DNA from: Branchiostoma floridae
Lineage: Eukaryota; Chordata; Leptocardii; Amphioxiformes; Branchiostomatidae
Assembly: GCF_000003815.2 (NCBI RefSeq)
Contig: NC_049982.1
Span: 15,356,769 to 15,420,768 of the forward strand
Direction of reading: 5' to 3'
Length of the DNA: 64,000 nt
Below, one piece after another: positions 29,941 through 63,924 of this stretch (the stretch's first letter is position 1; the number at the start of each line of letters is the position of its first letter). A program made the translations under genes and the position numbers. The notes under the pieces are model-generated. The model was given only the letters and a program-made list of their open reading frames with translations. It was not told where the DNA came from and ran no database searches.

Positions 29941-30170
29941 TGGCTGAAATATGCTGTATTTGCTCTCAAGCAAATGTCGGCCTTTCTAGTTGTCAACTAC
30001 CATCATAGCATGGGAAATGTTTCTTTCGGCTATACTGTTTGCTTCTCCACTTTCAGTATATAGACAGCTCAGAAGAAAATGTTTTGGTACATACATGTGT
30101 AGTATTTCAAAGTATATTATTAGCATGAGGTATTGTTTGTAAATACAACAGCCCTGTAGGGCAAATTTCA

Positions 30171-31029
30171 NNNNNNNNNNNNNNNNNNNNNNNNNNNNNN
30201 NNNNNNNNNNNNNNNNNNNNNNNNNNNNNNNNNNNNNNNNNNNNNNNNNNNNNNNNNNNNNNNNNNNNNNNNNNNNNNNNNNNNNNNNNNNNNNNNNNNN
30301 NNNNNNNNNNNNNNNNNNNNNNNNNNNNNNNNNNNNNNNNNNNNNNNNNNNNNNNNNNNNNNNNNNNNNNNNNNNNNNNNNNNNNNNNNNNNNNNNNNNN
30401 NNNNNNNNNNNNNNNNNNNNNNNNNNNNNNNNNNNNNNNNNNNNNNNNNNNNNNNNNNNNNNNNNNNNNNNNNNNNNNNNNNNNNNNNNNNNNNNNNNNN
30501 NNNNNNNNNNNNNNNNNNNNNNNNNNNNNNNNNNNNNNNNNNNNNNNNNNNNNNNNNNNNNNNNNNNNNNNNNNNNNNNNNNNNNNNNNNNNNNNNNNNN
30601 NNNNNNNNNNNNNNNNNNNNNNNNNNNNNNNNNNNNNNNNNNNNNNNNNNNNNNNNNNNNNNNNNNNNNNNNNNNNNNNNNNNNNNNNNNNNNNNNNNNN
30701 NNNNNNNNNNNNNNNNNNNNNNNNNNNNNNNNNNNNNNNNNNNNNNNNNNNNNNNNNNNNNNNNNNNNNNNNNNNNNNNNNNNNNNNNNNNNNNNNNNNN
30801 NNNNNNNNNNNNNNNNNNNNNNNNNNNNNNNNNNNNNNNNNNNNNNNNNNNNNNNNNNNNNNNNNNNNNNNNNNNNNNNNNNNNNNNNNNNNNNNNNNNN
30901 NNNNNNNNNNNNNNNNNNNNNNNNNNNNNNNNNNNNNNNNNNNNNNNNNNNNNNNNNNNNNNNNNNNNNNNNNNNNNNNNNNNNNNNNNNNNNNNNNNNN
31001 NNNNNNNNNNNNNNNNNNNNNNNNNNNNN
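30171..31029. other. assembly gap (859 N)
   Basis: Run of unknown bases. Any open frame crossing it is an artefact. Confidence 1.
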
Positions 31030-33218: not shown

Positions 33219-36200
33219 ATCTTTGCATCCATCCCCAGACAGACTCTCCCTAACTACAAGAACCCGTGTTGGTTTGAGGAGGTCCCGGAAACAGAGCTGG
33301 ACTCCAATCCGTACAGAAACACGCACTACTACTCCAGCATCAGGACCAGGCTCAACCTGCTGGCCAGGCAGTTCCGGGACAGGCTCACCGACAACGGAAA
33401 GGCTCATCTCCGCTTCAGGTGAGACGGGGGACAAGGGAAGAATGGGTTTACTCTGTTCCTGATTGTTACAAAGGAGATTCTTTGGAAAGGATTGTTCAAA
33501 ACGTTATATCAAATTGGATATTATTTTCTGTTTCATGACACTTAGGGGAAGAAAGTAGTGCCTATATTTTTGGGACATTCTCTTGTTTCTATCTGCATAT
33601 TACTAGAGTTGAAGAATATCGATCCTTGCTTGTTTCAGCTGAAATTTCTATTGCTGCGTATTACAGCGTACATGTGTATTTGCATTTTTTTGTATGCTGT
33701 GACGGATAACCGTGGTCCCCCGTCCGTACAGGTGTGTGCCGTACTTCTATATCATCGGCATGCCCAAGTGTGGAACCACCGATCTGTACTACCGCCTCAC
33801 CAAGCACCCGGATGTTATCGGTGGTCTGGTGAAAGAACCCCATTGGTGGACCAGGAGGCGCTTCGGCGGACGGATAGGTATGATATCACTTAGGTTGTTG
33901 TATGAAAGTTTGCAGCCACGATAGATATAGAAGTCAGGAATTATTTTTTATGCTTATCGTGTCCTGGAATATATTAGAAGACTTCTCGAATCCTTCCCTG
34001 TCAGGCAGGTACCTCGTGATATGATTTAACTACAATCAAAGCAGCTTGTCAAGCAATTTTCTTGTACATTTTGACCTTTTTGTTTTTTTCTGATTTGAAA
34101 GTATCTGCCAGCTTCTTTGTTCTTTCAACTTTGAGTGTAGTTCTGGGAGTAACGCTTTAACCCACACGTGTACCTTTCCCAGGTAACATTAAGTATGAAG
34201 ACCAGAATTTCTGCAATGCTATTAATAGTTCATTTCAGTGACACTGTAAACTTAAATGCGTAGACAACGATTTTTTCAGCAATGTAACCATTAACATACA
34301 TGTAAAGGTTGTAATAGGACCCGTAGGGCAGTGTTTCAGTAACATATGTATGTTTGTGTTCTATCTCAGGGTTCCACAGTAACCTGTCATCCCCTATCAG
34401 AGACTACCTGGATCTGTTCGACGAAGCTGCGTGGACTATCAGGACCAGGATCAGGAACCGCTTGTTTTTGGCAAGACAAGAGGTTGTCCAACATAACGTC
34501 ATCACAGGTAATTTCAATGGGCACGTCAAAACAGAGGGTCGAATTCTGAACAATGAATACCTAAACTTGGTACTAGATGTAGCATGACATTTTACGGGTC
34601 ATTTGAGTACTATTTTGATATTTGTTCCTAATAGAGTTTGCAATTTCCTGGTTTTTGCCCTAACTCAGAATAACTAATGTTCTGCTGACTGTCCGTGCCG
34701 TACAAGGGAGGGGAGTGCCTCTAGAATAACCACTGTTCTGTTGATTGTCGGACCGTACAGGGGAGGACAGTGCCTCCAGAATAACCACTGTTCTGTTGAT
34801 TGCCATGCCGTACAGAGGAGGACAGTGCCTCCAGAATAACCACTGTTCTGTTGATTGTCGTGCCGTACAGGGGAGGGCAGTGCCTCCACCATGTGGGACA
34901 ACAGACGGTGGAGACGGGAGCTGTGGAACACCTCCAACAACGAGCCGCCCATCCTGGTGGCCAACCTGCTGCGGGCCGTGCAGCCTCACGCCAGGTTCAT
35001 CCTCACACTCAGGAACCCCACAGAAAGGTCAGCGGAGAGACTCCCTGCTCAGGCCTACGTCACATTTCCTACCAGGGCCCGGCCGGGCTGTCCAAGTTGC
35101 GGAAACGGAAAATTAAAGTTTGTGCCAGTAAATATGCACAAGGCACGCTGTTGAATGATTTTTGGTCCGTTTTGTATTTTTGTTGCGTTTTATATCGTAC
35201 TTCTTCCCTTCCCAAAACTGCCTGACCGGGCCCCTTTGTGGAGATGTGACTTCAGCCTTGAGTAGCTCTTTGTCAGTCACCAATTTTGTAGTGGTTACAG
35301 GGTTAGGAATCAGGCAGAAGATTAGGATTAGGACAGTGACCATGGCCACTTTCAATTTATAAAGTCAAATCTCCCAAGTTCTAGACCAACCATGTTTGTC
35401 AGACGCCCAAACATTTTGCGTTCAATAAGTGCCCAACGGTGGGTGCAAAATACATGAACTGAGTATTTTCTGTTTCTGTATAAATCTGTACCTTTGTCGA
35501 TCAGTGATAGTGGTAACGTTACATGTGTGTTGGGCTGTGGATAATGAAGAGTGTTGTTTCCACTCTACAGACTATACTCGGAGTATCTCTACTTCACATC
35601 TGGGAACAAGTCCGTGGAGGATTTCCACAGGAGGGTCAGCCTGGCCATCGATATCTTCAACAGCTGCCTCAAGAACTCTTCTGTCCGGGCCTGCACTTAC
35701 GAGCCCACTCTTCCTGTCATACCAAACGTAAGCACTGAAGTCTGTGAAACATCCTGTTATGAGTTTTGTCATTCCCTTTATGCTCATCATCCTTTACATG
35801 TACATGGTTGTGTAAGTCAATCTAAGTCAAGAACGACACCATGCGGTTTTAGTTAGAGATGTCTTCACCGAAAGACCTAAAACGCGCGTATGTTTTCTCC
35901 ACTCATCTCTTCAGAACTGTACACACCATACGCACTGTTGCACCGTTGTGTTTTTTCTTCCTTTCTTCACCCCCCTTTTCTTCCTTCCTTTTGGTCTTTT
36001 ATGCTTGTGTCTTCCTATATTCCTTTCGAGCATATATGTACAAAATGTACAGTTCTCTACTCATATTGTAACACATTGTTATGATAGGTTTATTTTTTGC
36101 ACTCCCAGTTTCCCTTTTCCCCAATCTCACAATGTCGCATTAACCAACACAAACCAATGTCTCTCTCTCGTGCAAGTTAATGACGTGTACTGATCTCGTT

Positions 36201-37061
36201 CCCAGGTCAGACTGCAGCTGGGACTGTACGAAGTCTACCTACGCGACTGGTTCTCCATTTTCCCCCTGGACCAGATCCTGGTACTGCGTCTGGAGGATCA
36301 CTCCAAGGATCCGCAAACTACAATGATAAAAATATTCAGGTTTCTACAGCTTGGTTAGTAGCAGTCTTTTGTCTGTATCGATCTCCTGACATACTCTGAG
36401 AGAGAAAGTAAAATGAGGACTTGATCAGGCGTCTGTACCGTACATGTACTTAACTACTTCCTACCTAGCACCTAGATCTCTTGGTCCTTGGGGGAGATAA
36501 ACCCTGTGCCCTACTCTGTCGAAAATGTAATGTTAGCCCAATTGGGAAATATTTTTGACGGCATAGCCGCGAAACTGGGCAAATACGTATGAAACAAGAT
36601 CACAACTAGCATTACTGAAGTAACGTTTTTTAAAGAAATTTGAGGGTGTTGTTACCACATTTAAAAGTTAGCTCACTGCATCATAGTTATCCCGTGTTGA
36701 TCCAGCAGTAACAGGATGACCATAGGACTACTGCGTGTTTCACCTGTTCAATATTGATGTCGTCGTACAGTCTTTTTAGAACGTGAATCGATTCATACAT
36801 ACCCTTCTTGTCATACCGTGTTCGTTTTGTACCAATATTTTGTTCCATTATCTTGCAGAAACTGTCAAGGAAGGCGGTGATACAGAAGCCATCTTCGGTT
36901 TCAACAAAAGAAATTCTCGAAAAAAGAACGACCTCCGCTTGGGCCCGATGCTGCCGAAGACGCGGCGAATTCTGGACGACTTTTATGGACCACACAATCA
37001 TCGACTTGCGTCGTTGTTAGACGATGAGAGATTCCTCTGGCTAAAGGATAGATCTGTCTGA
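33219..37061 (+). CDS. CHST15: CHST15 (GalNAc4S-6ST)-like sulfotransferase, 7 exons, N-terminus missing
   Basis: Exons: 33219-33418, 33732-33877, 34370-34507, 34871-35027, 35571-35727, 36206-36353, 36859-37061. Phases agree; they give 382 residues and a TGA at 37059-37061. The family moves sulfate from PAPS to carbon 6 of GalNAc-4-sulfate in chondroitin sulfate, inside the Golgi. Visible marks are LPNYKNPCWFEE, the 5'-PSB motif PKCGTTDLYYRL after FYIIG, KEPHWWTRRRFG, an ASTMWDN motif and the 3'-PSB region LRNPTERLYSEYLYF. A LRLEDH motif and a basic C-terminal segment ending in DDERFLWLKD follow. All of these positions are typical of CHST15. Human CHST15 is 561 residues, so about 180 N-terminal residues with the membrane anchor are missing; exon 1 starts in phase 0 after an acceptor. 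Extra tandem acceptors precede exon 4. Confidence 0.85.
34698..34885 (+). repeat. four tandem 55-bp units, each containing a splice-acceptor-like site
   Basis: CCGTACAG or its variant starts at 34698, 34753, 34808 and 34863, exactly 55 bp apart. Each is followed by GGGAGG or close variants, CAGTGCCTC and, in the first three, AATAACCACTGTTCTG. The fourth copy is the true acceptor and first bases of sulfotransferase exon 34871-35027. Confidence 0.85.
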
Positions 37062-39087: not shown

Positions 39088-42000
39088 GTAAGGAACACAC
39101 GCTGTCAACTGTACATTTGGGTTTTAATGGAGAGATAGAAGATCATACAGATACTTGTACCAACAAGACAGAGTCATAGCTTGTAGAAATTGTCAACGAG
39201 TGATGTACATTACATTAAGTATGCAAATTAGATCGTGATTTGCATAATTAGCATATGATTAAACTACACAATTTATTCACCACCCGAAGAGCTATCTACC
39301 ACTCAAAAACCATGACCATGGTATGTCTAGAACATAAAATCGAAACCGTAGGTTTCACTGCAATGCCGTAACAAGCCACTGGGGATCGAATCACTTTCAT
39401 GTCTCATCATTACCTACCCACATACCTGGCAATGCGTTTGACGGCAATTGATCCACCCAAAACATAACTTTCTTGGTGAAATTGACTATTGAACAAGAAG
39501 TCAAACAATGTCCAACAAATACTAACGAAAACAATTTCTATTCAACTTCTGCAGCTTATTTCATGGGTTTGAAAATACTGTGTGAATGCTGTTCCCTGTC
39601 TGTCCAGCCTCCCTATGTTACGCGCCACTGGGAATGGCGGAGGGCCATATCTCTGACTGTGAGATCACAGCGTCCAGTCGGTTCGACTATTTCCGAGCTC
39701 CGAACCGAGCTCGGCTGAACGGAGCATGGGGGACTGGCGGTTACGCGGGGGCCTGGTGTGCCGCAACAGGGGACAGCAACCCCTGGATACAGGTAGAACA
39801 TTTCCCCCTTCATGTGGAAACATGTAGCCTGGGTACGATCCTATTTCTACCGGGGTTCCCTACACTCACTCACGTAAGGAGCCCCGGTAGAATACGGATG
39901 ATACTCAGGCTAGAAACATGTATTTTAGAAGTGACATTTGGGGCCCCTTGTATTGCAATGGCACGTCTGTAGTGAAGTATGTATATATGATTAGTTTATC
40001 ATGCCAAGATTCCCCGCTGCACGTGTCTAGCATGCTAGCAAAGATGTTTACGGTAAATAACAATTATATAAAGCCCACCACCCTCCCAGTTTTCCTACAG
40101 TAAAAGTGTACCGTCTTTGTAGGTGACGTTCTCCGGGAGAGAGGTGAACGTGAGCGCGGTGGTCCTCCAGGGACGGCAGGACCAGGACCAGTGGGTGACG
40201 TCATACAGGCTCATGTACAGCGCTGATTGCCAGACGTGGGACACGTACACTGACGCGGGAAACAATGACGTACGGGTAACATAGATAGCTTAAATTCAGA
40301 TTCTGAATAGTTAACCTCAGGTGAAGTATTTCTTCCTATGGAGGCATATGACCAATGCTATGATTCCTTGTCAGAGACTTACCTTCAGCTCCATTGCCTG
40401 TCTCCGTGCAGGTGCAGTCCGGCGTGTCCGACAGGAACACTGCGGGCGTCATGGCGCTGTCCTCCGCCGTGACAGCCAGGTGTGTCCGCATCAACCCCGT
40501 CACCTGGGAGGGAGGTGTCGAGTCGTGCGCTTGCATACGCTTCGAACTGCTCGGGTGTACTGTCAGAGGTGAGGCAATATAAGGACCGACAAGCGGCGTG
40601 GGTTGTCAAACTTGCACAGCAAACCAGCAAAAGTATCTTCAGTATCTAAGCTTGGTTTTATTTCTTCATATAATATAGATGGGAATGTATCATTCTACAT
40701 CTTTCCTTTTTTCTGTTTCTTCTTTACGAACTTTTTCGTTAGCTAGTAGTGCTTTGCTACAACAGCATCTCCGGATTAAGAGAACAGCCGAGCTAGAAGA
40801 TAACGTTATAGTTCTTTTTATGGTCTGGCATGGGCGCATTGTTTGGAGCACCTACTGTTTAGGGGATATCTAATAACTGCGGATGAGTAAAATGGAGAAT
40901 CTGGCTTTTTCTTCAATGCATCCCTGCTGTTGACAATCTATATACCTCTAACATAACATAACATGTCAACATTTGTTTCACAGTGTTGCCCTGAAGAAAA
41001 CAGTGGATACCTACAGAAGAGTGTTTCACTGTTTGCAATTAGACCTCATCCATTAGCAACACGTTCTCTGTCTCTTTACAGAGTTTGCTGAGGACGACTG
41101 CCCCCCAGGGTACACGGGACATGGCCCGTACTGTTACAAGGCCTTCACTACCGCAAAGACCTTCGCCGACGCCCAGGCGACCTGCGCCACGGACTCCAAG
41201 GGCGGCAAACTCGTCATCATCCGCGACCCGGCAACCCAGCAGGTACTGCAGGCTCCAAGCTTAGCACACCTCGGGCTCGGTAAAATAGTTTGCAGGTGGC
41301 AGTTTGCGCGTAAATTACAGTGTGCCAATTCATGTGTAATACTGGTGTGTCGCGTCTTACGGTTAGGCAACAGCACGGCAACCAACTGCTGGTACAGACG
41401 TAGCCGGGTATCAGCTGGACTGAGCCAGGCGCCGGCCGGTCGCAAACCGGTTCACAGTACAGTGACATACCCACTTTATTTTTCTCAACGAAGTCTTCTC
41501 AATGACATGGACATGTTTATATGTATTTCTATGCGTCTTTTTTTAGTTTGTGGAAAGCCTCCGGCCTGACCCCGCCCAGCCCTACTGGATCGGACTGGAC
41601 GACATGACAACGGAGGGACGCTGGGTGTACTCAGACGGGAAGCCTATTGGGTCCATGAACAGGTACCTTGTCCCTGATCTTACTAACATATGAGTACACA
41701 GCTACCTTTATATATCTCCAATGCTTGTGATGACCTGTTTATCTGTATTACAACAAGCTCACCCAAAACAGAACCTTGCTGCCAAAAAAAGGGACTGGAA
41801 GAAACTTATACAGCAGCAGCCGACCGATGATGATTTTTTTTTTTTTCAACCTTTATTTAACCTTGATACATCATTCGGCCTGAGCCGTTTTTCAAGATTT
41901 CATGATGAGTACTTATAAGTGATTGCGTCTCCGTGTCAACCATAAAATGTGACACTATCAGACAGTTTGTGCTACTCCACTACATGTGCTTTAAGACTGT

Positions 42001-45000
42001 CTTCCCTGACTACTTAGCAGGCTGATCTTAGCAGTTCAAAATGTTTAACACACCCGTCTGTTATTCAATTTGTGTTGATATCATCTGATCTAGATGGGGT
42101 TCAGGGGAGCCGACTAGTGCGGACTGTGGGTACATGTCGCCTGATGGGGCTTGGGGTGCGACCTCTTGTGGACAAACTAAGCATTACATCTGCCAGGCAG
42201 ATCCCCGCACGTGCGGAAGTGAGTCGCCAAGGAGTGGCCAAGACTACTCAAAATACAAGCTTTGGCTACATAAGGCTGTGCCGCCATAAAGCCTATCTAA
42301 GCGCCACAAATCAAAGTAGCACTGCTTCTTTGTCCTTGTTTGCTTCTTTTCCTTCTTTGCTTTGCCGTAATGTAGCTGGCTTGCTGGGCAGCCTAATGAC
42401 TATCCAGGAGATGGTGACTGTGCGCGGCTAGAGGGATCCCAGTGGAATGACTACGATTGCTCTGCTCTCAATCTCTTTATCTGTGAGGTGGACCCTTTTG
42501 CGGACACACGTAAGGCTACGCTAGCGCTTACGCTCATGCTAGCACTCATGCTTGCACAGGCACCTTAGGATCTCATGTGTTGTAGACGCTATATTTCCAA
42601 AGTTGCTTCACAATTGCCTCTTTTCATTTATTGCAAATCGACGCTTTGACGTAATCGCGCACGGGAGACTCCAATAATGCACACAGATACATATTTTGTT
42701 TTGTTTTGGATCAGTTACAATATGTAATATTAATATAATGTCTATTTCACACGGCGTGTTTTTGTTGTAGATACGTACCTACAACATTTCCTGCCGATCC
42801 CTGGGTACAAGAACACCGCTACTGTCCAAACCCTGGTCCACACGCCCGGAGCCCCTCCCGAGGTCTGCGCCCAGGCGTGCGTCTCATCCGGCTCCTGCAG
42901 GTACGTCAAATCGTTCGATAAATCAACAAGGAAACCATCACTCAGCACCTTTTCCCAAAAACGTAACAAAAGGTAATGGTCTCCCATAGCCTTTTGTGGC
43001 CGTGGGGACTGTGGGATGTTATCCACTGTGTCTAGGGTATACCGTATTGGAAGGCAGAGCCCGTCCCTCTTCTTTCACCGCCATTTACCTCCCCAACCGA
43101 ATTCCAGTACCCATTTACACCTGTGTGAAGTGAGGAAAGTCATAAACCAGGAATCGAAGCCGTGACATTTGTGTCCGTTAGCCTAGCAGTTCGGTCACTC
43201 GACGCCAAGGATCATCAAATAATGTTAAATCTTGCCCACCGCTAGGTCATTTTACGACGACGCGTCCGCGGGCCAGTGTCAGATATCTTCGGAAAACCGC
43301 ATCTCAAGCCCATCCTCCATCGTTCCTGACGCTGGGAGTACACTGTACGAGCTGCGCTACAACAATGGTGCGTCTTGTCTTGGAGAAGACAAACTGGTAT
43401 ATCCACTGATACAAACCGCTCGGATCGCCAAACCTACACCACCTCTTACTTAAATCAAAAGCTATCTGTCATAAAAAATAATCAAGAACGTAGCATGTCT
43501 AGGACAAAATATCCAAAAAACGGAATGTCTGCTTGCCTATCCCTATCTACATACTAAATAGCATTGCAGCCGGATTAGATGGGTAGCCCATCCAGAAGTT
43601 CCAATTTAAAGTTATGCTGGCTACAGCTATCTGAAACACAAACACACAGACAAACAGACACACACACACACACACACACGTACACACACACACAAATACA
43701 CATACACATACATAGACACAGGCACATCTAAAAACAATACGTATCCGCGAGGAAAATGTAGAGCGATTACCAGAACTTGAAGGTTTTCAAAACAGACAAT
43801 TGAAATGACATGATCTGGGTAACAGCAGTGCAGATCTACCACTCATCATCTGAAAGTGTTTCTTTTTCTGTCATGCCTGTTTCAGCCGGCTATCAGGGTT
43901 GTTACAAGGACCAAGAGTGGCCGGATAGAGACATTGAATACAACACGACAGTCTCCACATTGAACGAATGCATCAACCATTGCCGAGGGAAGTGTAGAGA
44001 CTTTGCTGCGATGCAGGTTGGTATCGTAATCGGTGGAAACTGAATTTACTTTGCCTGGATTTTTCTTTCTCCGCACCACTTGTCTGTAGTGTACATAATC
44101 ATAAACCATTGATAATGGTGCCACGACTATGATCCTATACATATTGCAGTTAATTGTGTGCTACATGTATCTTTGAGTAGACATGAAATGGAGTCCCCGG
44201 ACCTCATAGAGAAGAGCACGTTTCAGCCCATACTGCATTATAGGACTGCTTTGCATGCGTGTATCACTGTTGGCACATTGGGAAGCAAGCTTCCTTACTG
44301 TTATAGTAGCCGGGTATGTTTTTACAGATAGGGGTTGCTAGCCATTTCCCTTCAACGTGCTCGAGGCGCTCCCTCGAACACTGGTCAGTGGACCAACACT
44401 TTACGTTCCCTAGTTCCGAAAGACAGGTGTAGCCCCAACCGAGAAGCCTTACACAGCCTCGCAGGATTGAACCAGAGTCTCTCAGAAACCAGGAAGGACC
44501 ATGAAACCATGAAGATCCCTAGAACCAGGAGCTCAACTGTGAGGCTGTTACCAGTTGAGCTAGAGGGATATCCCCGATGTTGTGTATACTGTACTTGAAG
44601 ACCTCAGGATCCTCCCGATGGCAATTAAGGGAAGTCGACATGTTTTCTCCCTTGTCCACAGGGTCGGGATCTGTGTTTCTGTTCCAACTTCTACGGTCGT
44701 CATGGAGAGGCCGCTGCATCGGACTGTAACATCGACTGTAGAAACACCACTCTGAAAAAATGTGGCGGGAACCTGAGGAGTTCTATCTACTCGGCAGGTA
44801 GGATGTGATTAATCGTTTCAGGAGGAAGTGCTAAGATGAACTGCAGTCTTTAAGGTAGGTACTGTACCAAGGGGGAAATGTTTAGAACAAAACAGAATGT
44901 CGCATAACAATGAGATAATGTCCTCGAAGACATAAAATAATTATTACGTGGTAAACCCCAAACAACCTCTACAACAACACACACTCCCCATGGCTTAGGC

Positions 45001-48000
45001 TGTACTGAACCATACAAAATCACATTGGATTCGTTAGGGGCCTTCGAATGGATTCAACTTTATTGAGGAAAATACTTTTTTTCAGTTTGAAGTCCGGTAA
45101 GCATTGTGCGCATGTTTACTTCCGTCTGGGAATGACCATGTGATAAATATTTTCATTTCGTGCAGAAAACGTTTATTTTATGTTGAAGAATGATACGTCA
45201 GGCATACATCACCTTTAAAGGGCATATTTATGACCAGATGTCGATACATTGTCTTGAAATAACCTCTTGTCACGATCACAAAGCAATAAACCACAAAAAC
45301 AGCCATCTCCGTCGTTAATTGTTGTTTTGTGAGGGGAAATATTCAAAACGAAAAGGCGGAAAGGAGTACTCAAAGACGGACATTGTATGATAGTTTGAAC
45401 TTTGTTCCAACATAAAAGAAGAATCTCTTCTAATATCCGAATGAAAGCCTATCATGTAAAGTTTAAACTTCACAACTATGAATTCTACCAACACAGATGA
45501 GCTTCAATTAAAAACTCGTTTTGTAAAACACATTTCGACTTTTCTCCCTTACATTTGACCATGAAAAATAGATAGATAGATGCTTGATAAAAGATCATAT
45601 CATGGATGTACTGACATGTCGACAGTGATGGATAACAAAGATTTTAGGCAATTTCCATCCCGAAATTGTTGTTATTCTGCATCATAAATCTGCCAGATAT
45701 ACAGTACAAAATGTCACTCTAATCGCCATATCGCATGGAAGAAGAGAGGTAATTACGAGGTACGTTTCAGCACGGAAGTTTAAGGAAAGTGCTGGTTGTT
45801 ATTCATGTTGACACTAAATTGTGCAGTGGCACGAACGTCTTTCAACATTTGACCACACCCATTTCTGTTGCTTTGAGTTTAGCATATGGTACCCAGATTA
45901 CTACCCTACTCTACCTTAACTCCGAAAACAGGCTGAAAATTCTGGTTCACTAGTTAACTCAAGCAAGGAACAAACATTACATGAAATGTACGGAACGGTC
46001 AAGTGTTCTTGCCCAAATAGAAATGCAAAGAGAGAAGAACACGAAAGGCCAGTTTTACAATTGAAGTAGCTACTCTCAATGCAATAATTTCTTACCTCGT
46101 AATAAATATGAAAATATTGTCCCCTCCCATACAGACCGCTGGACCCCTGCTATGTTACTGGAAAGCCTGGTTGGTTTTCAATGTTTGGCTGTGAACGCCA
46201 GCGGCTCTACTTTCACCCCTGGGTACCGGTCCTGTGTAAGGGACGACATCAGGGTGAGTATGTGTCAGGAGAACACCAAGTCATCGACACAACCTTGGGT
46301 GGTTTCTTCACTCGAACACGGGTTCGTTGGACATTGGTCAATCATAGTGTGGACCTACAAGCTTTACCGGAATCTCTTTTCCTGTTTTTGTAGGTTCATT
46401 GGGACTGGAAGGGAGGTGTAAGTCAGTTACAAAACCGCTACACTGGAAGGTGTCTCGCGAATTGTGGTAATGGGCAAGTGTGCATGAAGACCTGCACATC
46501 CTCCTACGCTGCAGCTCAAGCATGGTGGGTAGCGTTGTTTCACTACGTAGATATATTAGCATCGTATTCATAATTCTTAAAACGAATCTTTCTTTAAGAA
46601 ATGGAGTTTAGGTTTGCCGTTAACGCATGAAATAGGCGATACAGTTATCAGAAACCGGGACAGCAATTGTGTTGTTTTAATCTCCAGGGTTTGTAGCGGT
46701 ATGTGTATCGTCAGTAAGTATGCCGCTAACGCAGGACTGGCGGACCGGTACCTGACGCTCAAGGGGGACGGCACTCTCATGCTGTCAGCCATGTGCTCCA
46801 ACCCCGGGGATATACAGGCTCACTGGCGGGTCTTCGGCTCCCCGAACAGGCGAGCCTGCCAAGCCGACAAGTCCTCCCCAAGTAAGGAAGTTTGTACTTC
46901 ATCAGCACGATAGTTCACTTGAACGTATACTTGCACAGATTCTGACCAAATTACGATGGATCTCAAAATAAACACTGGTTTGAAAACTTAATCGTCTTAA
47001 ATGCTCAGTATCAGCCTCATGCTTTGGTCGAAAGCAGCGATTGACCCCATCGCTATTTTGAACTCTAGATTGCTGGTAGGCTGTAAATAGTCATGAGCAC
47101 AAAGGTTAAATGCTAATTGTTTTCAAGGTGACGCTGAGTCCAAATGCGGAAAGGTGGAGTGCGGTGTAGACTGGTACGAAGTGAGCTGGCCGATGTACAC
47201 GCCTGGCGTTGGAGACGATCCCCCCACCAGCTTTACACTGGTGCTCTTTCCAGCTAGCTCAGACCTCAATCATTGGAGAGTCGCCGAAGTCCCGTCAACA
47301 AACAAGTAAGGCAATTGAGGTAGTTCGATGGCTGCCTCCCGATGAAATATGTCAGGTTGTTGGGTAAAAAGATGATCAGTTCGGGTGTATACTACCCAAG
47401 ATATTTCATGATCTAATTAATGTGTGCAATAATAGAAGGCGAGATAAAATGATGTGCCATTTAATTGGCCTAATATATGATATTCAATGTCCCAACTTTT
47501 GCTGGAAAAATCATTAACCTTTACCTCCAACTCTCGCTAAGTTCTTACTTCATGGACCGGCTCAGTCTGGGAGAGAAGTATTACGTCATCATCACTGCCA
47601 ACCGACCCGGAAAAGTGGGAGCGGCCATCTTGAAAGACATCGAGCTCAGTAAGAGAGCAAATACTTTTATCTTCACTTCGTCTCTGTGAATGTCCTGCAA
47701 AAAGGAATTAGAGTTTGTACACATGTAACAGATTTGAGTATTGTTTAGCAATTTTACAAGCAGGCTGAAATTCCTGCCCTGGTAGAGAATAAACACATGA
47801 TGAACACTAATAAACACAAGTCTGCTTTTTTGGTAGCTGAATTTGATATTGTTTTCCTCATTTCTGTAGAACCAGATCCGCCGGGAGACCCTCACGTCAT
47901 CAAGACCACATCCTCAAGCATCTATATCTTATGGAACGACTCAACCGCAATCTCGGAAGGTTACAGGTAGGGCAGTCACAACCCTGAAAGCTATTTTTAC

Positions 48001-51000
48001 AACTTGATATTCAATCTTTAAACATTCAACATATGTCAACGTTTTCTTGACTTTTGCCAGAGTCGATTACTTCCCAGAGGGCGGAAGTGCAGACACCATA
48101 CGGACGGTGGACGTGCAGCCCACAACAACAGTGGTGGAGCTGACAGATCTGCTGCCGGGCCACAAGTACAACGCCACGCTCGTCACCACAGGGCTCTACT
48201 CAGTCAACAGTGTTCCTGAAAATGTGTCTGGAGGTAACTATCTTTCCCCTTCGATCGTATCTTTCCCTGATCTTATCATCATCATCACCATCTCTCTCTC
48301 TCTCACTCACTCTCTCTCTCTCTCTCCCTCATCTATCACGTCATCTATCACGTTTGTTGTGTATTGTCGCCGTTTGTTAATATTTTTGATTCCCTACCCA
48401 TCCACAATACACGCCACACTATCTAACTTTCTTTACTACTTACACATTACAGGTATTTGTGGTAGAGATGTTGGTAACGAATTTTTGAATCCAAATTTAC
48501 CCTTTAGTCTTTCCTGTTCCACTTTTTTCAACTTTAAAGACGAGTCTATTGTTCTCTACCGAGCACCAGGGCAGCACCACATATTGGTCATTACTTCATG
48601 TAACGTGCTACGTCAATCATCTTGCAGAAACGAATGCGTTAAAAGTGAAGATCTCCGGAGGAGACGGGAGAGCGTTAGGGAACAGGCGGCCCTACCTGAT
48701 GGATGCCGAGTCGGAGACGTATGACGCCAATGATCCTAACGTTACCAGCAATTACGTCTTCAAGTGGTACTGCAAAAAGGTACGTACAGAATAATGGATA
48801 GTGAGAAGTGTACTAGTAATTGTTTTTCTGCATGCAGACATGTGGATACTTTATATAGCAGTTAAGTAAGCGGCATCCAATCACAAGAGTTCCAACTTCC
48901 AAAAAGATCAAATACCTTCGACTTTACCCTGAACGCTATAAGTACCGTTTAGGCGAATGTTTTCACGTACTATTGAATTTCCACCTACATGTATCTTACA
49001 TGTACAGTGGATTCCAACAACAACAACCGCACCCCCGACGACTACGATAACGGTGACGCCTGCCCCAACAAATACCACCACACACTTCACATCATCAGCG
49101 GCTAATGCTACTACGTTGTATTTCAATACAACAAGTACGTCGTACTTCAATACAACAGCTATGGCTAATAGCAGCATGCACAATAACGCCAATGCCACCA
49201 CGCCTACGATGTCTACGTCCATCCCAAAGACGTCTAGGCAACCGCAGCATGCTGAAAGCGCCATGCCAGTTAGTTACCAGGACGGCCTCGCTGTGGTCCA
49301 CAGCCACTGTGAAACAGGTAACTACGAACTCCTCTGGGAAGGAGATGCTAAGATCTTCTTGGACACTTCTGATCTGGAACCGAACACCACGTACGTCATC
49401 AAGGTGACGGCCTCTAAGGAGATGCTCCATCCTCTCGGGTACACCTACATCGGAGAGGAGTCCTTTGAGCAGAACGTTTTCATCGTTGAAGGAGATCCTC
49501 CCATGATGTCAATCAAGTAAGACCCACCTATATATTTATCTCAATTATCTCAAGAAAACAAGGTACCACCCCCTATGGCACTACTTTTGTTTATTAATAG
49601 GTACAGTGTGCTCTTTCTTAGTATTTTAATATTTTGGATGGCGTCATTTTACACCATTTTTGAATGCCGCTCAATCATGAAGTACAAATTTCTAATTACA
49701 GATTGTGACAAGCATACATTACAAGTACTTTCTCAGTTTCTGTCAATCATAGTCGGCTTAAAGATTTGGCGTGTCAAATGAATCTACTCAATCTCATCGC
49801 AGCCCCTTTGTGGATTGTAGAGCATTTTGGAAAGTTATTACGTCCTTTCTTCACAGCTGCATTCGGAACTGCCTGTGGGCTGTTGACGTGACGGAGTCTC
49901 TGGCTCTCCGAGGAAACTGTGACTCCTGCCAGAAGAACTCCGAACTGACGTACAAATGGGAACTGTTCAGGGAGGTCAACGACACCATCGTGGAGATACA
50001 TGACTGGCATTCTCTCACTAGCACAGGTACGGCGGGCCTGGTTTGGGCGGGGGTAAAGAGTCGTTGGATGTGAAATAAACATGTTTCTATCTAATCGAGT
50101 TCAAGAAACATGGAAAGGAAAACAATAGATATTGTTTGAAAAGTAATAAACCTTTTTTTCTATGATTCTGTAAATAATGACATGTAGCTGCATTGACTAA
50201 CATTTTGCACTTGTACCCACAGGACGAAAAACAGCCAGTCTAGCAATCAAGGCCAACGAATGGGACGTCAGAGAAGTCTACCGCTTGCGTCTGAATGGCT
50301 TTCCTCCGAATGGTCTTCCTCCCGGCTTCATCGAAATCAGATACCCCACCTCCCCACCCCTCTACACACTGGACTGCGTCATGAACCCAGATAAAGGTAA
50401 CGGCATATTGAATGTCTTTACGAAATGTAGTTTTATTTGTGCATTTATGGTTCTCAGCATACAAATTTCCTTACGGCATCTCACCCAGGGGACACAGGAA
50501 GTCGTTCTATTGTGAATGTTTCTTTCTGTTACGAAAAATGATTTTTGATATGCAATAACATAAAAAATCAACCGCGTCTTAAGTATACCTTTGACGTTAT
50601 TGGTCTGCTCACGGGAACTGTCTGAATCTATATGGAACTGTAAACTTGTTACGCTGACGTAAATGATAAACATTAAACTTGAAGATGTAGGACTATCATT
50701 GGTGGCCTATGCTCTGAATGGGGCAAAGGACCCAAGCAAGCAAGCAAACTTGAAGATGTACATTCTGTCCCCCAAATACAGGAATGCTGTACGAAACCAA
50801 CTTCTCGGCTAGCTGTGAGCTGACCGGATGGACTGGCGAGCTGGAGCCACGTCTGACGTATGAGTTCACGTCACAAGTCAACGCTCAGGTGACGCAGCTC
50901 GCTAGCGTGACCCGGATGTCCATTTTCACCGTGCCGCTGGACCTCGTGGCTGGGGACCCTGCCAGCGCATGCGCTGTGCTCGTCAATGTGCAGGGGCTTC

Positions 51001-54000: not shown

Positions 54001-57000
54001 GATTTTTTGCCGTGCTAACGGAAAATATATTGACTTGAACAAATGTATTACTAGTATTCAGCATGCTAGCAAAGTCCAAACTAGGGTTTGGAGAGATACT
54101 TATTCTATACTCTTTTTTTAATATTCTAGTTCATGAATTTCAACGAAAATCCATTCGACTGGGACAACACATCCAAGATTGTGACGAAGGTGGTTTCCTT
54201 GGACCTTACCTCAGAAACAGGAGGAGCATTTCCGGTGAAGGACACGGCGAACGACATCTCCATTTTTGTCGGGAACGACGCAGACCCTCCCGAGCCGCGC
54301 CTCGTCAGCAGGAACATCTCGGAGCCGGGGAAGTCTGAGATGCTCTACCACGAGATCACTGTTCCGTACAATTCATGCGCCATATTTACGGCGTTTGTTC
54401 CTTACAACAGGACAGTGCCTTTCCAGGCGTACGTCAAGTACGGACAAGTACCCACGGAGGACGACTACAACTTCACGGCTACGATTCCTCCGGGTTTAAA
54501 CTTGTCGCAATGCCACATGGGCCTTGAGTACACACGAAGTGACTGGAAAAATTATGTCGTTTCCTTCCAAGACATTGCCAAGAATGGCACTTACTACTTG
54601 GGCCTTAAAGAAATAAGTGAGTATGCAACGTCCTACCCCCAAACTCTTTTAAGAGCCATCTTAAAAGATGTCTGTCATACGTATAGCAGCGTTTGTCATT
54701 GTCAGACGTTAGCTACCTGAAAAGGTACTTAAGACCGGATGGATATCTATTTGCTGTCTGCAGAGGTCTTTATGAGTTACCAGGCTTCAAGGTCACAGAG
54801 TAGTATTTTATAAAAGGCACAGTACTTAAGAGAACTTTTGATGCTTTCATTTACTTTCCGCTTTTTCTCTTTATCATTCCTAGAAAACAAATTGCCTTCC
54901 GAGTAAGTCCAAACATACGATCATCACAGGACCGTTCATTTTAATATTATTGTCCCCTCACAGACCAGACCGATGTTTGTGGTGCTGGTTATGTGTATGG
55001 AGCAGATTTGAAGGAGAACACCACCGTCATCAGCTACGACTTCCTCACCATCACACCCACCTGTCGGTACTGGGACGCGCAGGAGGACAAGTGGGATTCT
55101 CATGGCTGTAGGGTAAGAAACAGCAGATTTTTCGAGAACAGATCCTCAATATTTCTGACGTGTTTTCCTCCGTACTTAGGAACTGAAAACCTCATACTTT
55201 AAACATATTCTACCCAGCCTGTCATAATGATAATACCAGAATCATCTGTGATTACGGTAGGTCTTCCCTTGTAGACATACCTGAGGCAAACTTTTTATTG
55301 TAGGCGAAGCATCATTTGAGAAGAATGTCCATCTAAACCCAAATGATCATGTTTCCTAGGTGGGTCCGTTGACCACGATGACTCAAACGCAGTGCCTGTG
55401 TAACCACCTGACGGCGTTTGCCGGGGAGATCCTGGTGGCGCCAAACACCATCGACTTCTCCACGGTGTTCTCCAAGTTCGCTAACCTGGGAGACAACGCC
55501 GCAGTCTTCGCCACCGTTCTCACCATGTACGTCATCTACTTCATCGTGGTGTTTTGGGCAAGACGAGCGGACAAGAAAGATGTCGTTAAGGTAGATGAGT
55601 AGAAGAATGGTATTCAGTTAAAACATTATTAACGTCTTGTGCATGAGTATATAACGGAGACGGGTTGGATTTTCTTCATATTGCACAGTTTCGCCTCGGG
55701 TCTCTTTGTCCCTGTTTAGAATGCCAGCATATTTTCTACATTTTGACCTCCTGTTCACGAAGGTTTGTGACGTTTATGTCCTAGTGGAGCTGTGCCCCTC
55801 TGCTTGACAACAGGCCCGGGCACAGCTATTGGTACAAGATCACAGTGTACACAGGAGTGTGGAACGGCGCTGGAACTATGTCACGTGTCGGCATTAACGT
55901 TGTTGGAGAGACGGGGAAGACTGGACCAAGGGTTCTGGAAGATGGAAAGCGCCAGGTACGTTCTTTTAGGTCAACAAAACTACATTGAATGATAGAAAAA
56001 AGCGTCTTTGATTGATATTATCAAAGTTATTCTTAGTTGTGTCTTGAGCGTGTGAAGAGTGTAGCCTAAGTATCCCAGAGATTTAATGTCTTTCACACTT
56101 TGCGTTTTGTTGCCAGGGATTTACGCGTGGAAGCATCTGCCATATGGCCATGGCAACAGACGAGAGTCTGGGCCCACTGGTCAACATCCGTCTGTGGCAC
56201 GACAACTCCGGGAAGGGTGAGCATGGCAGCTGGTTCTGTGACAGGATCGTTATCCAGGACCTGGAGACGAACGAACGGTCAGGGCAACATAGAGTCAGCT
56301 AATTCTGAACTAAGTATCTAAAAATCTAAATGAAGAAAATGTTCTCATGCGCGCCCCTTGTTGATTCGGCCTCATTGTCTATCATTTTCCAGCAACAAGG
56401 ACTTTGTTGGTGATAACAAATAAAGCCGATGTTGTATATTTTAGCTCACAATCTTAGCTAACTGCACTAACTCTGCTTATTGTTTAGCGTTACAAATATA
56501 TGATGATATGTTTCCTCCGCAATCGTTTTGAAATTCTATATTACCATAAACGTTTTTTCCGTCTATCTGAAACTGTATATCGCTATAAACGGAGTCGTTT
56601 TATCCGTCTATCTAAAATTTCATATTGCTACAAACAGGTGGTTTTTCATCTGCCAGCGCTGGTTGGGAGTGGAGCACGAAGACGGCCGTGTGGACCGCAT
56701 CCTGCCGGTGGCCAGTAAGGACGAAGTGGTCAGCTTCTCCAACCTGTTCCAGGACAAGACTCGGCAGGACATCACGGACGGACACATCTGGTTCTCGGTG
56801 GTGTCACGGCCCACGCGGAGTCACTTCACTCGTGTACAGGTGAGACATGCATGTTACACCGTGACAACTCGTCAAATGTCATAGTTCAAACAGAACTACT
56901 CTGACAGAATCCAGACGGTCCCGTCTTAAGTCGAAAGAGCTAAATTGTTATTAGAAATGCAGCGTGCTAAGTGAAATATCAGTGTTACAATCGTTCCATG

Positions 57001-60000: not shown

Positions 60001-63000
60001 GATGGTGACAGTTTTGTGCAAGACAAGAAACAAATATCTGACCGTTTCCAAAACTATGTACAGTTGCTTGCGTGACTATTATTTGTCGTATCTTATCACC
60101 TGGATGTATAGCCTTCCTTGACGTGCTAGTTAGGGATGATTTCATTCACAATCCGTAAGCCTTTGTCGGACAACAGGGAAATTAATCGACGAGTCTGGGA
60201 CCTCTAAATTACATTTTCAGCAATGACACATACAGCATTTTTTAGATATTCCCGCTTTTTGTAGGTATCAGATACTAAGCCGTATATATTACTACTAACA
60301 AGGTCCTTTGCTAATCCCTCCATACAAAATTACATCAATATCATGCCATAGATCAAAAACCACAAAGCATTGTTCAAGTGGCTGGAAGGAGACTTTGTTA
60401 ACCACGTTGTTGGCGGGAAGCTTGGCAACAGAGGTTACCTGTCTGACAACTACAGCTTCCGCCTTGGGTCTGCTCGTCTGCACCAAGTCAGAAACGAGCC
60501 AGGTATGAGTTTCTGCATTTAGTAATGATGAAGTTCGAAGAATACTGTGACGTTTCTGTTTCTGTGTTTACAAATAGGTAGGATAAATAGATTTAAAGTG
60601 AGATAACTATCAGGGCTATGCTGATGAAGAGTGTACTAGAAGGGCTATGAGAAAAGGAATCTCCTTACACTCTTCATCACCTCTCAGTGTACTTGATTGC
60701 TCCCCCCCCCCCATACTTTCAATTTTAAACACCTGGCTGACCACCTAAATAGAATAGCCCTCACACATTAACGATACTCTTCCCCAGCCACCTGTATGAC
60801 CACCCGGATTCCGTACTTCCCCTGTAAGATGGAGTACTCCGTCTTGGACCAGCAGGAGACATCTTACGAGCCCGGCTGGGAGCGGATGAACGCAACCAAG
60901 GCACAGACTCTCATTGAGGCTGAACAGTACACCCCGTGGATGTTTCAGGTACGGTCCATAGATCAGCGTGCTCAATCAACCTTGAACTGTGCATGAAGTG
61001 AGCGCACGATAATTCTGAAAGCCTAGTAGCTGAATACCATGCACCTTACTGTATCCACAGCTTTGTATTGGTTGTAGGTCATTTCAGGGTAACTGTTTAT
61101 CAATTTGTTACGATAAAGCAACTCTGAAAACTCGAGTACAATAATAGTACAATGCTGTTTCTCATCTTGCTTATTTTCAAATCATTTATGTGAGTATCGT
61201 ATAGTTTCCACTTGACAAAATATGCAAAAACTATGCTGCTACTTTATATCATTCCTTCCTCTCAGGAAACTAGTGACCTATTCCCCTACTCTGGGGAAAC
61301 AACAACCTACAGCAGCGATGGGTACTTTCTGGAGATTGGCACCAGCAAGAATGAGACCGTAGCTTCGGTAAATACACCAGACTTACACAACATATCTGCC
61401 TTTACAATAACTTCTCCATCCTTACTTTAGAACGCTGAAGAGATTCTGCTTTTTGCACTTTATTTGAGAATGTGAATATTACAATGGCACCAGCAACAAA
61501 TAACGTACACCAGCCACCATTACGTGTAAAAAGTGAATTTCTTTACCAGTTAAAGGATCTAAAGAAGCACCTCTGGTTGGACAACTTCACCAAGGCCGTG
61601 ATTATTGACATCGCCGTGTACAATGTCAATGTCAACCTGTTCTCTGTCATCACCTTTCTGGCTGAGTACCTTGTAGGCGGGGTCATCTCAGCCAAGGTCA
61701 CCATCAAGGTAAATGATAATCAGGTTACTTTTGACTTGGACAATAGGACTATGTAACTTGGAATTGATTGCATAAGCAAAGAAATTGTTCCTGGCCTTTT
61801 TTTTTCTGAAAAGACACAGGCTGTTCAAAGCTGTCTTTTTGATAACATGAAACTATCTTTAACGTATTTTTAGTTTCAGGAATGTTTGAGATATTGACAA
61901 AGCAGAAGAGAATCTAGAATCGTATAAAATAGATTCCATATTTCCATTTAACCTCTTACAATATAAGCAGGGTATTTTTGCAGAATGTGACTAGATTCGG
62001 GCTTTTTTTCAGGTTATCCGACTGTACTCGTTTGTTGGTGATTTCGGCAACACCCAGATCGCGATGCAAGTGATATTCGTGGTTCTCTTCATTTACTACT
62101 TTCAAAGAGAGGTCAAGCTGATCATCAAGGTAAAACCGCCCATTCTCCACGAATTTGCTCTTCTTAGTTTTAATTTCACTGAGATATTACAAGTATCGCA
62201 CGACTAATGAGTAGAAAGGAAAGGACATACGTTACATAGTACCACAAGTTAAGAATAATATAATACACAAACGTTGTTGTAGAAGTAAGTCAAAAGAAAT
62301 CTAAAGGATACAATAACTACCTTTCTGTCCCGCACTACCCACCCTATGAAATATAATGTCTAAAACAGCATCACACACCCCTTGGTTTCACACTCTCAAT
62401 GACAAATCTGTTGTTGATCAGGAGAAGAAGGCTCACTTCCGGTCCATGTGGAACTGGGTGGAGTTCCTGCAGTCCTTGCTGTGCGTCAGCGTCATTGCCA
62501 TGTTCGCCATGCGCGAGGTGCTGCGGATGACGACCATGAGCAAATTCCAGAAAAACCCAGGTACCTAGCAATATTTTCGTTACCTATTCCCGGAATGTCT
62601 GAAATGTAATTTTGGGTAAGGTATGCTTTCAAGCACCTAGGTATTTTACATTATTGCAAAGAAAAAGTGTACAAGGGTATATAAAGTATATACTTTCGTG
62701 CTTAGTGCAGTTATCAGTGCGTAAGATTGAAAAGAAAAATGATATCTTATCTCTTCTAGGCCGGTACATCAGCTTCCGGGGCATGGCGTTGTATAGCGAT
62801 GTGTTCATCGGTCTGATCGGTGCCCTTGTGTTCGTGGCAACACTGAAGCTGCTGCACCTCCTGCGCTTCAACAAGCGGGTGGCCATGTTGTCTGCTGTTA
62901 TCAATTATGCCGCAAAGTAAGGGTATATTCATGATACACATGTACACGTGTGACGGTATAGTTTAGTTTCCATGTCAGTGTTATCATGTAGCATCACATG

Positions 63001-63698
63001 ATTAACATTTAATGCTGCCCTGGTAATAGAAGAGTTTTTTTAACCCACCTGCACGTGAATTTTCATGGCGTTAATTTTGTACACTTTCACACCTGCGCTT
63101 TCATAAGAATCTAGAAAAAATCGCTGCTCTTGCTGTAGGGACCTGGGGCTCTTCTCTATCATCCTGATGACAGTCTTGAGTAACTTCACCTTAGTGGGGA
63201 TGATACTGTTCGGCACCCACATCAAGGAGTTCTCCGGCTTCATCGCTAGTCTGGAGCGGCTCATTGCCATGTTGCTGGGGGATCTGGACTTTGACTCCAT
63301 GTCGGTGAGTTAACATTGTGATATATGATTATAGATCAGCATCATTCACAGAGAAGCATCATTCACAGAGAAGCTTTCCACAACATATCTTTTAAAATAA
63401 AAAAAAACAACGAAAAATAATGAAATTTCCTTTTAGCATGTATCATATATCTTATAGCATATATTTCAGCTAAGTAAATCAGGAATGTTAGAAACCTTAC
63501 ACAGCGCCCATCTTTTTTTTCCGTGCAGACAGCCAGTCGAATCCTCGGACCCTTGTTCTTCTTCGGCTTTATCCTCCTGCTGGTGTTCCTGTTGCTGAAC
63601 ATGTTCGTGTCCATCATCGACTCCGGCTTCGGCGAAGTGAACGGTGACGAAAGCAAGATGGACACTGATCATGAGATAGTGGACTTTATGTGGTTCAA
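39039..63698 (+). CDS. polycystin-1-like receptor/channel with discoidin, C-type lectin, PAN, WSC, FN3, REJ, GPS and PLAT domains; 3' end outside the window
   Basis: Exons: 39039-39087, 39608-39792, 40123-40269, 40412-40568, 41082-41242, 41547-41662, 42094-42218 or 42376-42509, 42771-42900, 43246-43367, 43886-44016, 44662-44797, 46135-46253, 46394-46524, 46688-46881, 47128-47305, 47542-47648, 47870-47966, 48061-48233, 48628-48779, 49008-49516, 49857-50026, 50223-50396, 50782-51041, 51185-51337, 51740-51845, 51986-52125, 52333-52470, 52973-53063, 53288-53370, 53619-53858, 54130-54616, 54964-55112, 55360-55590, 55785-55955, 56117-56277, 56638-56839, 57048-57123, 57274-57328, 57463-57622, 57896-58148, 58539-58699, 59012-59135, 59532-59632, 59833-59961, 60352-60502, 60788-60948, 61266-61367, 61550-61708, 62013-62129, 62422-62560, 62760-62916, 63139-63304, 63529-63698. 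Phases agree throughout, giving about 2,820 residues. REJ, GPS, PLAT and an 11-TM channel define the PKD1 family. Human PKD1L2 and PKD1L3 carry C-type lectin domains too, so a PKD1L2/L3-type paralogue is likely, but orthology is not settled. The start methionine was not found. Confidence 0.88.
39608..40568 (+). other. F5/8 type C (discoidin) domain, exons 2-4
   Basis: The domain shows [17 protein letters not shown], an AWCA...DSNPWIQ segment, [24 protein letters not shown] and, at the end, [10 protein letters not shown]...RFELLGC. These are the standard landmarks of the family, which binds glycans or phospholipids outside the cell. The two terminal Cys are present. The exon-3 donor could lie at 40270 or 40276; both keep the frame. 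Confidence 0.85.
39817..39920. mobile_element. 88-bp foldback element with 8-bp target duplication in an intron
   Basis: GAAACATG at 39817-39824 and 39913-39920 flanks an 88-bp element. It starts TAGCCTG and ends CAGGCTA, and its arms share TCCTATTTCTACCGGGG-type sequence (right arm inverted). It begins 32 bp after the donor of exon 2. Confidence 0.8.
42094..42218 (+). CDS. alternative C-type lectin exon A (WND lost)
   Basis: Starts after TGATCTAG, completes AG|A as Arg, and ends TGCGGA|A before GTGAGT. It uses the same acceptor phase and leaves the same 1-base overhang as exon B. The loop EPTS followed by [14 protein letters not shown] suggests a non-sugar or altered ligand. Confidence 0.75.
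42376..42509 (+). CDS. alternative C-type lectin exon B (QPND/WND kept)
   Basis: Starts after CCGTAATGTAG, completes AG|C as Ser, and ends before GTAAGG. If read after exon A its frame shifts and meets TAG at 42414-42416. It works only as a replacement for exon A. The acceptor tract is modest (CTTTGCTTTGCCGTAATGTAG). Confidence 0.75.
42771..43367 (+). other. PAN/apple domain, exons 8-9
   Basis: A start of the [16 protein letters not shown] type is followed by [19 protein letters not shown]-type residues (here [17 protein letters not shown]) and a closing LYELRY. The Cys spacing matches PAN domains, which bind proteins or carbohydrates. Confidence 0.65.
43634..43722. repeat. (CA)n microsatellite in an intron
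   Basis: About 90 bp of imperfect CA repeats between exons 9 and 10. Confidence 0.9.
43886..44797 (+). other. WSC domain, exons 10-11
   Basis: [16 protein letters not shown], then [19 protein letters not shown], then [12 protein letters not shown] and [11 protein letters not shown] give the eight-Cys WSC layout. Polycystin-1 also has a WSC domain. Confidence 0.85.
44335..44600. other. low-copy-looking intron block resembling a decayed SINE
   Basis: The block has short tRNA-like pieces (a GATTGAACC B-box-like string and AGTTGAGCTAGAGGG) but no foldable tRNA. This is a weak call based on motif likeness only. Confidence 0.2.
45708..45876 (+). repeat. dispersed repeat, copy 2 of 2 (first at 24305), in intron 11
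   Basis: Same ordered blocks as 24305-24504: CACTCTAATCGCCA, GGTAATTAC, AAGTTTAAGGAAA, AGTGGCACGAA and GACCACACCCATTTCTGTTG. Confidence 0.7.
46135..46881 (+). other. possible beta-trefoil (ricin-B-like) domain, exons 12-14
   Basis: Three similar strands of sequence show [11 protein letters not shown]...[24 protein letters not shown] and [18 protein letters not shown]...AHWRVFG. Repeated C-L and W positions recall ricin-type lectin repeats. The family match is by pattern only. Confidence 0.4.
47128..48233 (+). other. two fibronectin type III domains, exons 15-18
   Basis: The first (47128-47648) has a YEVSWP start and [11 protein letters not shown]. The second (47870-48233) has [31 protein letters not shown] and [13 protein letters not shown]. 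These are the classic FN3 strand B, C, E and F landmarks. Confidence 0.7.
48290..48330. repeat. (TC)n microsatellite in an intron
   Basis: Imperfect TC run between exons 18 and 19. Confidence 0.85.
50675..50760 (+). mobile_element. 56-bp retroinsertion tail with 15-bp target duplication
   Basis: AAACTTGAAGATGTA occurs at 50675-50689 and 50746-50760. Between them 56 bp end in a (AAGC)n run. This is the form of a severely 5'-truncated non-LTR insertion with a simple-repeat tail. It lies 21 bp before the acceptor of exon 50782-51041. Confidence 0.7.
51618..51640. repeat. (CAA)n microsatellite in an intron
   Basis: Short AAC trinucleotide run between exons 24 and 25. Confidence 0.7.
54964..55590 (+). 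other. GAIN/GPS autoproteolysis site and first membrane helix, exons 32-33
   Basis: TCRYWD...DSHGCR, then [15 protein letters not shown], gives the four-Cys GPS motif with an intact HL|T cleavage triad. In this family the receptor is cut here and the halves stay bound. [20 protein letters not shown] is the first helix, followed by a basic ARRADKK segment. Confidence 0.88.
55785..56839 (+). other. PLAT (LH2) domain, exons 34-36
   Basis: [53 protein letters not shown] and [16 protein letters not shown] are the standard PLAT strands. It is cytoplasmic between TM1 and TM2 in polycystins and binds lipids or proteins. Confidence 0.9.
57048..59632 (+). other. transmembrane helices 2-5 and charged intracellular loop, exons 37-43
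   Basis: Hydrophobic helices are near [26 protein letters not shown] joined to [34 protein letters not shown] and [12 protein letters not shown]. Between them lies a cysteine cluster ([12 protein letters not shown]) and a long Glu/Lys-rich loop (57896-58130). The exon ending at 58148 joins 58539 to make FPHWCVYFGW, the expected family motif. A second basic loop follows ([11 protein letters not shown]). Confidence 0.8.
58149..58157 (+). promoter_or_regulatory. donor site overlapping an in-frame stop and AATAAA
   Basis: The donor GTAAAT at 58149-58154 is overlapped by an in-frame TAA (58154-58156) and an AATAAA hexamer (58152-58157). Retention of this intron would end the protein after HWCK, inside the channel part. 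Confidence 0.4.
59833..63698 (+). other. polycystin-domain cation channel, exons 44-53 (C-terminus cut by window)
   Basis: The S1-like helix [20 protein letters not shown] leads into the extracellular polycystin domain (60352-61708; [21 protein letters not shown]). Helices S2-S5 follow ([90 protein letters not shown]). The pore segment is [11 protein letters not shown] and the last helix [18 protein letters not shown]. The cytoplasmic tail continues past 63698. Confidence 0.88.
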
Positions 63699-63924
63699 GT
63701 CAGTATAGTACATTTCTGATGTTTGAACGAAACTATAGCTATAAAGCAGCGTAGAGCGGTCGACCTAAATGAAGGTTTAACACGGAAAACGTAAAATGTA
63801 CTCAATCCCACTACATAAGAAGCAAAAACAGAATCACACAGGCATGTCGTGTCTTTGTTTGTTTCTATCACAAAATCATGAGCTTCAAAGAAAGGTTCGT
63901 TTGGTTTAAATATCAAGTAAATGC

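Follow-up and report, generated by a model that had tools for sequence, protein, structure and literature searches.

Candidate mutually exclusive exons for two alternative halves of a C-type lectin domain in a polycystin-1-like gene of Branchiostoma floridae

In the variable exon clusters of insect Dscam1, every mutually exclusive exon codes for one half of a domain, and the choice among the exons involves docking-selector pairing. For the prediction of mutually exclusive exons, similar length, the same reading phase and splice type, and homology have been used as criteria, with a default length tolerance of 20 aa and a minimum homology of 15% of the self-score (PMC3228551). The word "lectin" does not occur in the main text of that paper or of a human catalogue of such exons (PMC5740500). 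Among the best matches listed in the open-licence literature, as judged from titles and the openings of abstracts, no exclusive exon pair within a C-type lectin domain has been found.

In the polycystin-1 family, the lectin domain of human polycystin-1 has been described as required for channel activation; when it was exchanged for that of PC-1L3, the chimera produced no more than minimal currents, measured with a gain-of-function PC-2 (PMC7728438). Positive selection is reported for the lectin domains of sea urchin REJ proteins in a paper whose main text contains neither "splice" nor "alternative"; human PKD1L2 is mentioned there with long and short forms (PMC1934368).

In this work we have analyzed a window of 64 kb (C4:15356769-15420768) of the 513,431,437-base lancelet genome, in which two adjacent exons, A and B, would each complete the same C-type lectin domain. 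The two are probably mutually exclusive exons of a PKD1-like gene, both used as alternatives. The shared exons would build the scaffold half of one domain, and either A or B would then supply the ligand-contacting half including the long loop.

Gene layout and reading frame of the exon pair

From about 39.6 kb, the candidate gene extends on the forward strand toward the end of the window and looks like one polycystin-1 (PKD1-like) gene (Table 1). REJ, GPS, PLAT, Polycystin_dom and PKD_channel pieces are all five present, in order and on a single strand, with continuity of the frame verified for 41082-46881. Their order, strand and family suggest that the far pieces, from REJ to the channel, belong to the same transcript as the lectin exons, in agreement with the term "receptor-channel" used in an earlier reading of the letters and open frames (the sequence-only reading). 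Elsewhere in the window, RasGEF gene pieces (RasGEF_N, RasGEF) lie at 1350-4189 on the forward strand, exons resembling a carbohydrate sulfotransferase by eye lie at about 33136-37060 on the same strand (Pfam recognized no family in the four ORFs tried there, at E up to 0.01), and a run of N at about 30160-31030 may be an assembly gap.

Table 1 Features of the candidate gene (window coordinates)
Feature	Position	Strand	Remarks
F5/8 type C (discoidin) domain exons	39607..40568	+	Directly upstream of lectin exons; Pfam F5_F8_type_C 88.6 bits, three exons joined
Shared exon, N-terminal part of C-type lectin domain	41082..41242	+	Phase compatible with next exon
Shared exon, mid lectin domain	41547..41662	+	116 bases; terminates AG/GTACCT, 2 codon bases left over
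Exon A, second half of lectin domain	42094..42218	+	125 bases; short loop, EPTS, without WND
Intron between A and B	42219..42375	+	157 bases
Exon B, second half of lectin domain	42376..42509	+	134 bases; QPND and WND, Gly two before Cys
TAG in frame if A and B are both included	42429..42431	+	
PAN domain exons	42771..43367 (42771-42900, 43246-43367)	+	Pfam PAN_1 34.5 bits; downstream of lectin exons
TGA reached if A and B are both skipped	43327..43329	+	
WSC domain exons	43886..44797 (43886-44016, 44662-44797)	+	Pfam WSC 43.6 bits; query included two residues beyond the second donor, outside the matched part
REJ domain piece	49008..49514	+	Pfam REJ 31.8 bits
GPS motif piece	55360..55599	+	Pfam GPS 22.3 bits, slightly below cut-off 22.5
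PLAT domain piece	56087..56299	+	Pfam PLAT 32.2 bits
Polycystin domain and PKD channel pieces	61439..63705	+	Polycystin_dom 55.6 bits; PKD_channel 19.6 (below cut-off 22.4) and 37.7 bits

The second shared exon, A and B each leave a remainder of 2 when their length is divided by 3. Both A and B accept two bases from 41547-41662, continue with 41 and 44 full codons, respectively, and leave one base for 42771-42900. Coordinates, AG/GT borders, lengths and phases are as the sequence-only reading had given them. When ten exons with hand-picked borders were joined from 41082-41242 to 46688-46881, the product with A only and the product with B only were both open. The product with both exons stops at the TAG within exon B; the stop predicted earlier for this form does exist, its proposed position 42414-42416 reading GTG. 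Skipping of both exons, given earlier as breaking the frame, leads to a stop only at the TGA that is met one exon after 42771-42900. As the other combinations meet a stop, a productive transcript would contain exactly one of A and B, and transcripts with both or neither would presumably be removed by nonsense-mediated decay.

The same stops could serve a different purpose if A and B were ordinary cassette exons whose frame-shifting forms feed decay and lower expression. This alternative is highly improbable: each single-inclusion form keeps the same frame and completes the same domain, and a matching half-domain would be needless in an exon of purely regulatory function.

Homology of the two halves and constraint on exon A

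The joined shared exons (41082-41242 and 41547-41660) match positions 2-62 of the 107 of Pfam Lectin_C with 46.6 bits. Exon B alone matches positions 72-106 of 107 (27.0 bits, E 8.1e-6) and exon A alone positions 75-106 of 107 (21.8 bits, E 0.00034, just below the curated cut-off of 22.6); for either exon Lectin_C is the sole Pfam family at E up to 10. The second half is the part which we take to hold the last three core cysteines of the lectin fold. The complete domain scores 73.7 bits with A and 79.8 bits with B.

In a tblastn search of the 64 kb, A found B as its only other match with E below 1 (E 0.005), and the reverse search gave E 0.006, with an identity of 28% (12/43) over the alignment. 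The A-B alignment scores 53 locally and 45 globally; compared with this 45, the best unrelated segment scored 15 against B and 16 against A among 3,400 open, phase-matched AG...GT segments from both strands, a set in which overlapping segments and pieces of A and B are included. A profile of 23 lancelet half-domains, built without A and B, gave 53.3 bits for B, 37.5 for A and 5.4 for the best unrelated segment; the queries that had supplied its seeds were A, B and the shared exon, and the Pfam match is therefore the independent test.

With respect to the published criteria, the lengths are 125 and 134 bases, the borders are AG/GT with equal phase and both products are open, and the global score amounts to 17-18% of the self-score against the minimum of 15%, although the scoring differs from that of the program used there (PMC3228551). 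The two halves match the same end of Lectin_C, though their identity is low and they are not sisters in trees. On these criteria, which are independent of RNA, the proposal that mutually exclusive exons complete one C-type lectin domain is supported.

At the DNA level the A-B similarity is weak (score 20, equalled by 10 of 300 shuffles) and the flanking introns are dissimilar, which argues against a recent duplication. A genome-wide DNA search with A at E up to 0.001 returned A itself only. Among 353 candidates for further exclusive pairs, tested against the 27 modelled exons of the gene (A and B included, their own pair not counted), the best score was 30, at 53.7-53.9 kb, a stretch not covered by the modelled coding exons.

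Exon A might also be a decaying relic, an old half-domain that is skipped while B alone is spliced. Its acceptor is weak (rank 23/27), its stand-alone Lectin_C score is just under the cut-off and the sugar residues are absent, all of which would be expected of such a relic. Over 40 aligned codons, however, A and B have diverged to saturation (dS 1.8, dN 0.83; 11/40 residues identical), and A has nevertheless kept an open frame, the core Cys and Trp and phase-matched splice sites. Neutral evolution was simulated from A under a JC model without indels, with 3,000 runs per distance. The frame stayed open in 37% of runs at 0.2 changes per site, in 22% at 0.4 and in 14-17% from 0.6 on. An open frame together with all six Cys/Trp, one of which is the extra, non-core Cys of A, survived in 1.8% of runs at 0.2, in 0/3,000 at 0.4, in about 1/3,000 (0.03%) at 0.6 and in none at 0.9-1.8. 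The short-loop form of A is, moreover, common to other open lancelet domains. Decay of A is accordingly an unlikely explanation, and exclusive use of both exons remains the preferred reading.

Third-position GC counts against that reading, as it reaches 0.56 in A and 0.50 in B compared with 0.73 in seven neighbouring exons pooled. The strength of splice sites, ranked with leave-one-out matrices from hand-picked sites of the same gene, says little: the acceptors of A and B (23/27 and 22/27) are weak, as would suit regulated exons, yet the acceptor at 42770, common to both forms, is the lowest of all (27/27), and the donors rank 18/29 for A and 19/29 for B. The last 60 bases ahead of B are richer in pyrimidines (0.73) than those ahead of A (0.58), for which reason the default form may be B and the regulated one A.

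Ligand site, relatives and origin of the two halves

As noted in the sequence-only reading, B contains QPND and WND, and A contains EPTS and lacks WND. At the place where WND would be, A has WGA. The position two residues before Cys is Ala in A and Gly in B, compared with Glu in 17/19 and Gln in 2/19 of the related loci L003-L021. In mannose-binding protein and DC-SIGN this Glu coordinates calcium and sugar. Sugar-binding C-type lectins are recognized by an EPN/QPD-type motif, Glu two before Cys and WND, and the full set is present neither in the A form nor in the B form. The A head, judged from these residues, could not use the canonical calcium/sugar site, while the B head might. In B, Gln-Pro-Asn is accompanied by Trp-Asn-Asp and Glu is replaced by Gly, and this head may therefore bind sugar or may not. 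Of the earlier proposal that splicing switches between a sugar-binding and a non-sugar-binding head, the part concerning A thus holds as far as the canonical residues go, and the part concerning B is a hypothesis only. At 42205-42218, beyond its last core cysteine, A also has an extra one (PRTCG), absent from B, which may be unpaired or form an additional bond.

It is also conceivable that neither head binds sugar and that the two loops bind different proteins, as many C-type lectin-like domains do. The Gly of B at a position so commonly occupied by Glu in the related loci fits this, and against it stand the retention of QPN and WND in B and a neighbouring Asp that might serve in the loop. We would give this alternative, which is compatible with exclusive use of A and B, a little less than an even chance.

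The nearest relatives of B in the genome (at least 150 scored matches) belong for the most part to the EPN or QPD type and carry WND. Those of A (60 scored matches) are headed by L023, with L025 and L027 close, three loci that have a short loop, EPS and no WND. In three trees with about 40 residues per sequence A and B were never sisters. A grouped with L023, L025, L027 and L040 with a support of 0.962 (partly typed seeds), 0.793 (exact seeds) and 0.908 (32 ungapped columns). B fell among EPN/QPD-type WND domains with 0.774 in the tree with partly typed seeds, and the support for its nearest neighbour was only 0.483 and 0.286 in the others. There is thus modest support for placing A with the short-loop, WND-less lancelet domains instead of regarding it as no more than a broken B. 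A lancelet short-loop lectin subclass with EPSG and without WND was seen in L023, L025, L027 and L042-L044, and in L042 and L043 it adjoins another lectin domain.

A phase-2 intron just before Trp was read by eye in four other lancelet domains (two in L045, one each in L046 and L068), so the position of the splice choice appears to be old. In L045 and L046 (C5:8815000-8834999), three lectin domains split by this intron occur within some 15 kb. Nine fetched loci (L003, L015, L018, L020, L030, L031, L060, L061 and L068) have first-half and second-half matches in separate open frames, and in 0/9 of these intron-split domains do two second halves follow one first half; the further second half of L068 has its own first half. 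This count covers neither loci with second-half matches and no first-half match (L023, L025, L027, L028, L036, L044) nor the converse (L050, L052, L063), nor the mixed loci L029/L047, L039, L040, L042 and L043, nor domains in one open frame. For L003-L041 and L049-L059 the survey included flanks of 1.5 kb, and half-domain copies farther away would therefore escape.

The two halves could have originated by collapse of two adjacent lectin domains, the second of which lost its first-half exons, so that a single first half came to precede two second halves of different subclasses. Such an origin, which is compatible with exclusive use, is suggested by the separate placement of A and B in all three trees and by the tandem lectin domains of L024, L026, L034, L037, L042 and L047. 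With so short an alignment and poor support at many nodes, however, an old exon duplication followed by divergence could look alike; furthermore, tblastn detected nothing left of another first half across the 64-kb window, and the intron before Trp is absent from the short-loop relatives in L042-L044. We consider the collapse possible, with a probability clearly below one half.

Exclusion and comparison with known systems

The enforcement that can be seen in the sequence consists of the frame-shift stops of the forms with both exons and with neither. In the human catalogue 60% of exclusive-exon clusters include exons whose length is not a multiple of three, and steric exclusion is possible for 9% (PMC5740500); protection by the frame alone would thus be ordinary. 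Steric exclusion applies to donor-to-branch-point distances below 50 (PMC5740500), and the length of the whole A-B intron, 157 bases, argues against it. Incompatibility through U12 sites was set aside as the sites look like ordinary GT-AG by eye. Local complementarity among the three introns was equalled or bettered by 117, 222 and 190 of 300 mononucleotide shuffles, and with intron pairing at this chance level a mechanism of the docking type is not visible. No known RNA families were found at 41001-43500. YGCY (MBNL type) occurs 8 times in the A-B intron against 2.5 expected from shuffles (p 0.00 of 500) and 9 times in the downstream intron against 3.2 (p 0.01), within 56 motif-by-region tests (8 motifs in 7 overlapping regions, mononucleotide shuffles), and this excess is a weak lead to a splicing factor.

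Since the lectin domain activates the channel in human polycystin-1 (PMC7728438), exchange of half of this domain would, by analogy, plausibly change what opens the lancelet channel, and a switch between A and B would matter; the splice choice may set which ligand or partner glycan gates the channel. The most far-reaching version, that a polycystin-type channel swaps half of its activating lectin domain by splicing, that the halves come from different subclasses through collapse of two domains, and that the choice between a glycan and another ligand is thereby set, is as a whole unlikely. If both exons are used, the locus offers a natural two-isoform experiment with one difference in one channel, as well as a case of exclusive splicing within a C-type lectin domain.

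In comparison with described systems, A and B resemble mutually exclusive tandem exons (PMC3228551, PMC5740500) in being adjacent and homologous, of similar length and the same phases, with a frame-shift on joint inclusion; they differ in being only 28% identical, in grouping with different subclasses and in being known here from sequence. With the variable clusters of insect Dscam1 they share the principle that one half of an extracellular binding domain is supplied by exclusive exons and the scaffold is common to all forms, whereas Dscam1 has dozens of such exons instead of two, an immunoglobulin instead of a lectin fold, and docking-selector pairing, which was not found for A and B. Like the polycystin-1/PKD1 family, sea urchin REJ proteins included, as described in PMC1934368 and PMC7728438, the candidate lancelet gene would combine C-type lectin, WSC, REJ, GPS, PLAT and channel parts, and it adds F5/8C and PAN domains and, for the second half of the lectin domain, two alternative versions.
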